From: Halorhabdus salina
Lineage (GTDB): Archaea > Halobacteriota > Halobacteria > Halobacteriales > Haloarculaceae
Length of the DNA: 64,000 bases
NCBI RefSeq assembly: GCF_013839425.1
Contig: NZ_JACDNP010000011.1
Coordinates: 1-64,000 of the forward strand
Direction: 5' to 3'
Positions 24,057 to 25,493 of the stretch are shown here, piece by piece. Under the pieces are notes generated by a model. That model did no database searches. It worked only from the letters and a program-made list of their open reading frames with translations, and was not told the origin of the DNA. Each line of letters begins with the position of its first letter. Position 1 is the stretch's first letter. Position numbers and translations under genes: made by a program.

Positions 24057-25493
24057 CTACTCCTCGTATATCGTCACGTTCCGAAACTGTGAGATACCGT
24101 TTCCACCCGCGTCATCGTCGTTAACGAAGACAAGATGAGTGACGGTTTCGCCATTGGATGCCAGCGCCGACGAAGCGTCGATCTCGTAGCGGACCCAACC
24201 GTCGCCGCTCGAATAGGCTGGATTGGCCTCACTGGCCCACGACTGATTGCCGTAGAAGCGCACGAACCGCGATTCCGTCTCTGATTCGTCGGTTTCCAGG
24301 CCGACGCCGTGGATCTCACCCTGGCTCGTTGCGTTGAATTCGACCGCGAGGACGGTCTTGTCGGTGACGGTTTTGTTGATCGGCACGTACGTCCACGTGT
24401 TTTCCGAGAGAGTCAGCTTCGCGTTGTCGTCGCTGACCGCCGTGCCGAAGTCCTTGTCCTGCGTGCCGTAGCTCCGAACGGGTTCGGTGACAGTGGCCCC
24501 GTCGACACTGAATTCGAACTGTATCGACGAATCCTGCGAGAGTGATTCGTAGGCGCGGATATTCCGGAACTGGGAATTACTCGGCCGTTTAGTTTCGTTG
24601 TCGACGTCGTTGACGAGGGCAAGGGAGGGAGTCTGCCCGTGCAGTGATCGGTCATAAAGTTCCCCGACAGGGATCTCGTAGTGCACCCAACCATCTCCAG
24701 TCTCGTACTCGCCGTACTCGATGCCCCAGGGCTGTGAGCCGAGCAACGTGAAAATCCGGTTACTGGAGATGCTGTCGTCGGTCTCGAAGCCGATCCCGTG
24801 GATTTCCCCGGCGTTCGTCGCTCGAAAGTCAAATTCCAGGACCGTTTGGGCAGTGACGTTGTACTCGAAGTCGAGTAGCTTCCAGGTGTTGTTCTTGAGA
24901 GTGACCTCTCTTTCCCCCATCGTAGACGTGAATTCGGCATCGGCATCCTGTCCGCCGCCGTACGATCGAACAGTCGTCGCGTCGAATCGAAGATAGGCGG
25001 GGACCGTGCCCTCCCGGGGCGGCGTTGCTGTGTACACGAGCGAAGATGTATCACCCTGCTCCCAGACGAGTTGAGCGTCCTGGGACGCTGCCGGATACAG
25101 TGGGCCGATCTGCGTCCCGGCAGCGAGACGCTGGTCGGCGACGAACGCCGAGAGCGGATACGACCGCCCATCGAGTCGGACAGACAGGCGATCGACGTCG
25201 ATGGTATCGCCGTTCTGATGGCGGATGACGAGCCCATTATCGGCAGTATAGTCCGTCTCGAAGGACGCTATCGGTGGCTCCGCTTGGAACGGTTCGGCGA
25301 GACCGAGTGCAAATATAGAGACGGTGATCCCGAGGGCGATCGCGATCGCGACCAGCAGCACGTTCGCCACGACGGGTGTCATGGCCCGGTCGCCCCCAGT
25401 CTGGTCTGGCCGTCGCGAGCGTAGATCGTCGTCTCGAGGAGGGGACTCGTCAGTGCCACCCACGAAAGCAGTCAACTCACCACCGATTCGCAT
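24057..25493 (-). CDS. Pilin-like surface protein with two tandem domains
   Basis: The 478-residue protein begins with a hydrophilic leader of about 37 residues (with RSRRP) ending DRA, then MTPVVANVLLVAIAIALGI. This is the class III (type IV pilin) signal of haloarchaea, with cleavage expected between Ala37 and Met38. The extracellular part has two copies of a beta-rich domain, about residues 165-310 and 330-478. Both share NxTW...T.VLE(F/V)(D/E)F(R/N)AT, then EIHG(I/V)G(F/L)ETD, a Trp in QPW or QSW, GDGW(V)xYEI, and SQFRN(I/V). The pattern resembles non-catalytic carbohydrate-binding modules attached to bacterial polysaccharidases. I infer an adhesive or substrate-binding pilus subunit. It is convergent with ileS and divergent from the MFS gene. 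Confidence 0.75.
   Translation of the reverse strand: MRIGGELTAFVGGTDESPPRDDDLRSRRPDQTGGDRAMTPVVANVLLVAIAIALGITVSIFALGLAEPFQAEPPIASFETDYTADNGLVIRHQNGDTIDVDRLSVRLDGRSYPLSAFVADQRLAAGTQIGPLYPAASQDAQLVWEQGDTSSLVYTATPPREGTVPAYLRFDATTVRSYGGGQDADAEFTSTMGEREVTLKNNTWKLLDFEYNVTAQTVLEFDFRATNAGEIHGIGFETDDSISSNRIFTLLGSQPWGIEYGEYETGDGWVHYEIPVGELYDRSLHGQTPSLALVNDVDNETKRPSNSQFRNIRAYESLSQDSSIQFEFSVDGATVTEPVRSYGTQDKDFGTAVSDDNAKLTLSENTWTYVPINKTVTDKTVLAVEFNATSQGEIHGVGLETDESETESRFVRFYGNQSWASEANPAYSSGDGWVRYEIDASSALASNGETVTHLVFVNDDDAGGNGISQFRNVTIYEE

Follow-up and report, generated by a model that had tools for sequence, protein, structure and literature searches.

The archaeal pilins described so far are mostly small, with no obvious binding module, and little is known of how archaeal pili select what to stick to. 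In bacteria, PilC of the Streptococcus sanguinis type 4 pili is a minor-pilin adhesin with Ig-like and ConA-like lectin modules, whose glycan binding and structure have been shown experimentally (PMC9934059). Raynaud et al. (2021) catalogued over 1,200 bacterial modular pilins in 264 architectures, among which PA14 and lectin-like modules are common (PMC8179133); their survey was built on the bacterial N-terminal domain IPR012902, and archaea are absent from its main text. Among archaeal pilins, UpsA of Sulfolobus has been proposed to recognise glycans (PMC7064770); the region proposed to do so is part of the small pilin domain itself, and no module is grafted onto it.

A gene of Halorhabdus salina encodes a protein that shares the design of the bacterial modular pilins and is probably a modular type IV pilin adhesin with outward-facing, glycan-binding tandem domains. 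Like PilC, it is a pilin with grafted C-terminal β-sandwich modules, and by analogy it is best read as an archaeal counterpart of lectin-bearing PilC; as proposed for UpsA, an archaeal pilin would be recognising glycans. PilC is bacterial, has a ConA-like lectin fold in one copy and is understood from experiment, whereas the protein described here, as read from sequence and prediction, pairs an archaeal pilin with two tandem copies of another, uncatalogued domain of CBM-like fold.

The gene lies on the minus strand at positions 24057..25493 of the window, the 64,000-nucleotide stretch of DNA that was analysed, with its open reading frame exactly where the first-pass annotation had placed it; it begins with ATG and encodes 478 amino acids plus a stop codon. 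All its parts are given below in window coordinates on that strand. Residues 1-37 (25383..25493) form a leader ending in a class III signal, GGDRA followed by MTPVVANVLLVAIAIALGITVS, in which the motif R36-A37/M38-T39 precedes hydrophobic residues and fits a [KR][GA]-type site; cleavage would fall between A37 and M38. The 37-residue leader is followed by the hydrophobic N-terminal helix of the pilin (residues 38-66, 25296..25382), which reads MTPVVANVLLVAIAIALGITVSIFALGLAE and is predicted to be helical at residues 40-64. Both family models of this region scored over their cut-offs: Pilin_N (PF07790) matched residues 36-110 in Pfam (E = 4.3e-11; 43.9 bits against a gathering cut-off of 25.2), and the archaellin/pilin N-terminal model TIGR02537 matched in NCBIfam (E = 1.2e-5). 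The class III signal claimed in the first-pass annotation is thus borne out. The annotation had passed over residues 67-167 (24993..25295), an ordinary pilin β domain that Pilin_N covers as far as residue 110. Among solved structures, the Haloferax volcanii pilus subunit 8fj5 is the nearest in sequence (E = 8e-11), and the full-length 478-residue AlphaFold model (mean pLDDT 79.5) aligned with 8fj5_A over 132 columns (TMt 0.51, E = 1.6e-5). Because the matching part comprises helix 40-64 together with the strands of residues 76-156, the model indicates that the protein is a complete pilin rather than one with a mere pilin-like signal. The two proteins have the pilin module in common, but 8fj5 lacks a C-terminal extension. 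In most haloarchaeal relatives the pilin body, from the helix to the first C-terminal domain, spans 113-128 residues; it is somewhat longer in two.

Behind the pilin body lie two predicted all-β domains of about 140 residues, domain 1 at residues 172-317 (24543..24980) and domain 2 at residues 336-478 (24060..24488), separated by a linker at residues 318-335 (24489..24542). A bacteria-dominated profile of the domain matched them at E = 4e-50 and 2e-42, respectively. The first-pass annotation had recognised two domains correctly but had drawn their limits at 165-310 and 330-478. Its claim that they resemble each other holds: they are 43% identical, a whole-genome search with domain 1 recovered domain 2 at E = 4e-24, and both contain the motifs EIHG(I/V)G, GDGW(V)xYEI (here GDGWVxYEI) and SQFRN. 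Domain 2 is the more diverged of the two and lacks the IPVG loop in the alignment; in the full-length model its region is predicted β with pLDDT mostly 84-96.

Searches of Pfam, NCBIfam and PDB assigned the domain to no described family. Neither copy scored above cut-off in Pfam or NCBIfam, and no significant relative was found in PDB by sequence or profile. The CBM30 profile (PF21582) did not match the window protein and matched 3 of 90 relatives weakly at E ≤ 0.1 (best E = 0.0013), and a similarly weak CBM_4_9 match (E = 0.004) occurred in one of 21 full-length haloarchaeal proteins. Both faint signals agree with the predicted fold. Modelled with AlphaFold from an alignment of 90 domain copies, domain 1 consists mainly of β strands (pLDDT 91.5, pTM 0.87). 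A comparison with CBM folds had been proposed in the first-pass annotation, and when the model was run against PDB with Foldseek, the nearest folds were indeed CBMs and surface glycan-binding proteins. The top match was CBM30 (E = 1e-4, TM 0.44-0.49), followed among the best by surface glycan-binding protein B (SGBP-B, TM 0.53), CBM4-2, CBM29, CBM16 and CBM86. CBM30, CBM4 and SGBP-B, the nearest solved folds, were matched with probability 1.0, but at TM-scores of a modest 0.4-0.5 and 8-17% identity, with no significant Pfam match for the window protein. Almost all of the nearest solved folds are carbohydrate-binding, which supports a carbohydrate-binding type of fold for the modelled domain; sugar binding itself we infer from this fold. 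W204, T217, G252, D296 and D298 are invariant across the 90 copies, and Q182, D183, N202, G229, E230, G233, I234, G235, Q254, Y263, Y272, F309 and N311 are nearly so. The conserved W204, W256, Y263, Y272, Q182/D183, E230/H232 and D296/D298 count in favour of glycan binding. Taken as modelled, the domain is probably an uncatalogued carbohydrate-binding one.

Among haloarchaea, 392 genomes of the class were sampled, and 20 of them, from 10 of 86 genera, carry the domain; a single-sequence query and the bacteria-dominated profile retrieved the same 20 carriers. In this sample it was found on pilins only: Pilin_N was present in all 21 full-length members scanned, namely those from the 20 carrier genomes and one from Halorientalis marina. 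The members of Salinarchaeum and of four genomes within the genus carry the domain twice, all others once. In a tree of the domain (139 columns, poorly resolved) the haloarchaeal rows cluster, with two changes and none of 500 shuffles as low. This clustering is compatible with one origin, such as a single transfer from bacteria, but does not prove it.

The same domain is present in unrelated secreted bacterial proteins. A scan of 84,980 prokaryote genomes with a narrow pattern from a five-row alignment gave 163 confirmed places, the best 80 of which fall in Bacteroidota, Planctomycetota, Cyanobacteriota, Chloroflexota, Verrucomicrobiota and haloarchaea, among others. We rejected a viral origin, as viral contigs yielded no relative of the domain and the BFVD fold matches were generic tail-protein β sandwiches. 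Among the bacterial owners are subtilases, reprolysin-type metalloproteases, multicopper oxidases, RTX proteins and RHS proteins; MAM, fn3, F5/8C or Ig-like modules and T9SS tails are frequent in them. In the 20 that were scanned we found several proteases and no recognised glycoside hydrolase or lyase domain. The first-pass annotation had likened the pattern to carbohydrate-binding modules of polysaccharide-degrading enzymes; the likeness extends to the fold, but descent from such enzymes is disfavoured because these 20 owners have no recognised domain of either kind. Many owners are T9SS proteins of about 830 residues whose N-terminal half is unannotated, with no Pfam or PDB match in the one examined; this half could still be an enzyme.

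The family of about 830 residues, represented by L036 (6204-8720, plus strand) and many similar Bacteroidota loci, is T9SS-secreted, carries the domain behind an unannotated N-terminal half of about 440 residues and sometimes occurs as neighbouring paralogues. In a Verrucomicrobiia protein (L098, 5589-8414, plus strand) the domain is C-terminal and accompanied by a sub-threshold match to the bacterial prepilin N-methylation motif (E = 0.002); judged from its sequence, this is possibly an independent bacterial pilin-type fusion. The domain is also found on plasmids of Glaciecola (L034, within a YD-repeat protein) and Gloeothece (L035, in a cadherin-like protein), which makes plasmids a possible transfer route.

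The ligand could instead be a protein, because in bacteria the domain often sits on proteases and, among the owners scanned, on no known CAZyme. The product would then still be a modular pilin adhesin, with domains binding proteins, or a peptide or collagen-like matrix, in the manner of the vWA module of S. sanguinis PilB, which binds proteins (PMC8179133). Such a ligand would suit the prevalence of subtilases and reprolysins with MAM, fn3 and F5/8C modules among the bacterial owners, and the protein-binding β sandwiches of meprin alpha and the gingipain adhesin domain appear lower in the Foldseek list. The CBM TM-scores of 0.4-0.5 also leave room for it, and β-sandwich jelly rolls occur in protein-binding domains too. 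We nevertheless regard protein binding as rather unlikely: the top structural neighbours are overwhelmingly carbohydrate-binding, and the conserved residues include aromatic and acidic ones that would suit a putative sugar site.

Is the protein part of a pilus at all? The gene itself is real and conserved. Three other genomes of the genus carry it intact beside ileS, and it evolves at a dN/dS of about 0.2 (0.24 overall in a codon comparison with the closest relative, at 82% protein identity), which excludes a chance open reading frame. By part, this closest pair gave 0.11 for the helix, 0.13 for domain 1 and 0.26 for domain 2, with the leader and linker looser; for the linker the two closest pairs gave 0.56-0.75, a rough estimate since the stretch is short. 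No pilus genes adjoin it; next to it lie ileS and an MFS transporter gene. A conserved pilus operon is ruled out, relatives within the genus sharing only ileS and neighbours. Elsewhere in the genome there are four PilB/T2SSE-type secretion ATPases over cut-off, one A24 prepilin peptidase gene and 11 Pilin_N matches. The missing operon would agree with a pilin-like N-terminus acting as a membrane anchor for a surface receptor or substrate-binding protein that joins no pilus, like the Sulfolobus bindosome proteins; class III signals are found on archaeal sugar-binding proteins (reviews PMC4187195 and PMC2910488). We consider such a receptor improbable, however, as the pilin module is complete, including a β domain that matches the H. 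volcanii pilus subunit, the relatives examined have no conserved solute-transport operon beside the gene, and archaeal pilin genes normally can stand alone (PMC4858521).

The proposal of the first-pass annotation that glycan binding serves substrate capture, with the pilus tethering the cell to insoluble polysaccharide being degraded, would suit the CBM-like fold, the several GH5 genes in two carriers of the genus and the presence of Salinarchaeum laminariae among the carriers, but it went unsupported and is very improbable, a substrate-holding role being not favoured for Halorhabdus salina because GH5 and GH18 are both absent from its genome and from that of its closest relative, and the carriers show no significant enrichment (GH5 in 4 of 20 carriers versus 45 of 372 others, p = 0.23; GH18, p = 0.24; either, p = 0.12; 20 carriers give little power, and two families fall short of all polysaccharidases).

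For the pilin adhesin with glycan-binding tandem domains, we propose the following course. The preprotein would be inserted into the membrane and lose its leader to the prepilin peptidase, which would cut between A37 and M38. The N-terminal helix and the pilin domain would then become part of a type IV pilus, with assembly proceeding through the helix as in other pilins. As the grafted tandem module is bulky, the protein would most likely be a low-abundance (minor) subunit at or near the tip, an argument made before for bacterial modular pilins (PMC8179133, PMC9934059). The two C-terminal β-sandwich domains would be displayed outward to bind glycans, and their presence in two copies may give avidity. 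Likely targets would be polysaccharides or glycoproteins on surfaces, in biofilm matrix or on other cells; adhesion to glycans of the matrix or of the cell surface is no less likely a use than holding substrate. The pili of Halorhabdus salina may thus grip sugars on surfaces or other cells, and a separable, well-folding domain on a pilin makes the adhesin directly testable.

Bacteria already provide examples of a glycan-binding module on a pilin, and in Sulfolobus a pilin has been proposed to recognise glycans (PMC7064770); the archaeal modular form and the uncatalogued domain in it appear to be new. The first-pass annotation knew of no such fusion in archaea. This stands for archaea, as a limited search of the open full-text literature turned up no description of archaeal modular pilins or of the domain, but the principle itself is familiar from the lectin-bearing pilins of bacteria (PMC9934059, PMC8179133). 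If our reading is right, the modular-pilin principle reaches beyond bacteria into archaea, and an uncatalogued, probably carbohydrate-binding domain is shared by Bacteroidota, Planctomycetota, Cyanobacteriota, Chloroflexota and haloarchaea. We put forward more tentatively, as a possibility we would not yet bet on, that modular pilins serve haloarchaea as a system of interchangeable glycan-binding adhesins and that the domain defines a new, broadly distributed CBM family.

Modular pilins look like a general haloarchaeal feature. A sample of 15 genomes contained about a dozen Pilin_N genes in frames longer than 300 residues, some of them clearly extended at the C-terminus and others owing their length merely to a frame that continues upstream. 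Outside the window, the same genome encodes a second modular pilin of 623 residues (L131, 10235-12106, plus strand), in which Pilin_N is followed by PKD-PA14-PKD-PA14 (PA14, E = 4e-38) and whose gene overlaps an upstream surface-protein gene. The PA14 domain is present in many sugar-binding adhesins. It is also among the carbohydrate-binding modules listed for bacterial modular pilins (PMC8179133). Two other haloarchaea encode pilin-like proteins with long repetitive C-terminal stretches (L159, 1026-2177, plus strand; L161, 439-1644, minus strand), in which repeats such as DATVEGAVNAEKVA and DGTVSADESVYVRD resemble those of bactofilin and other polymer-forming β helices.
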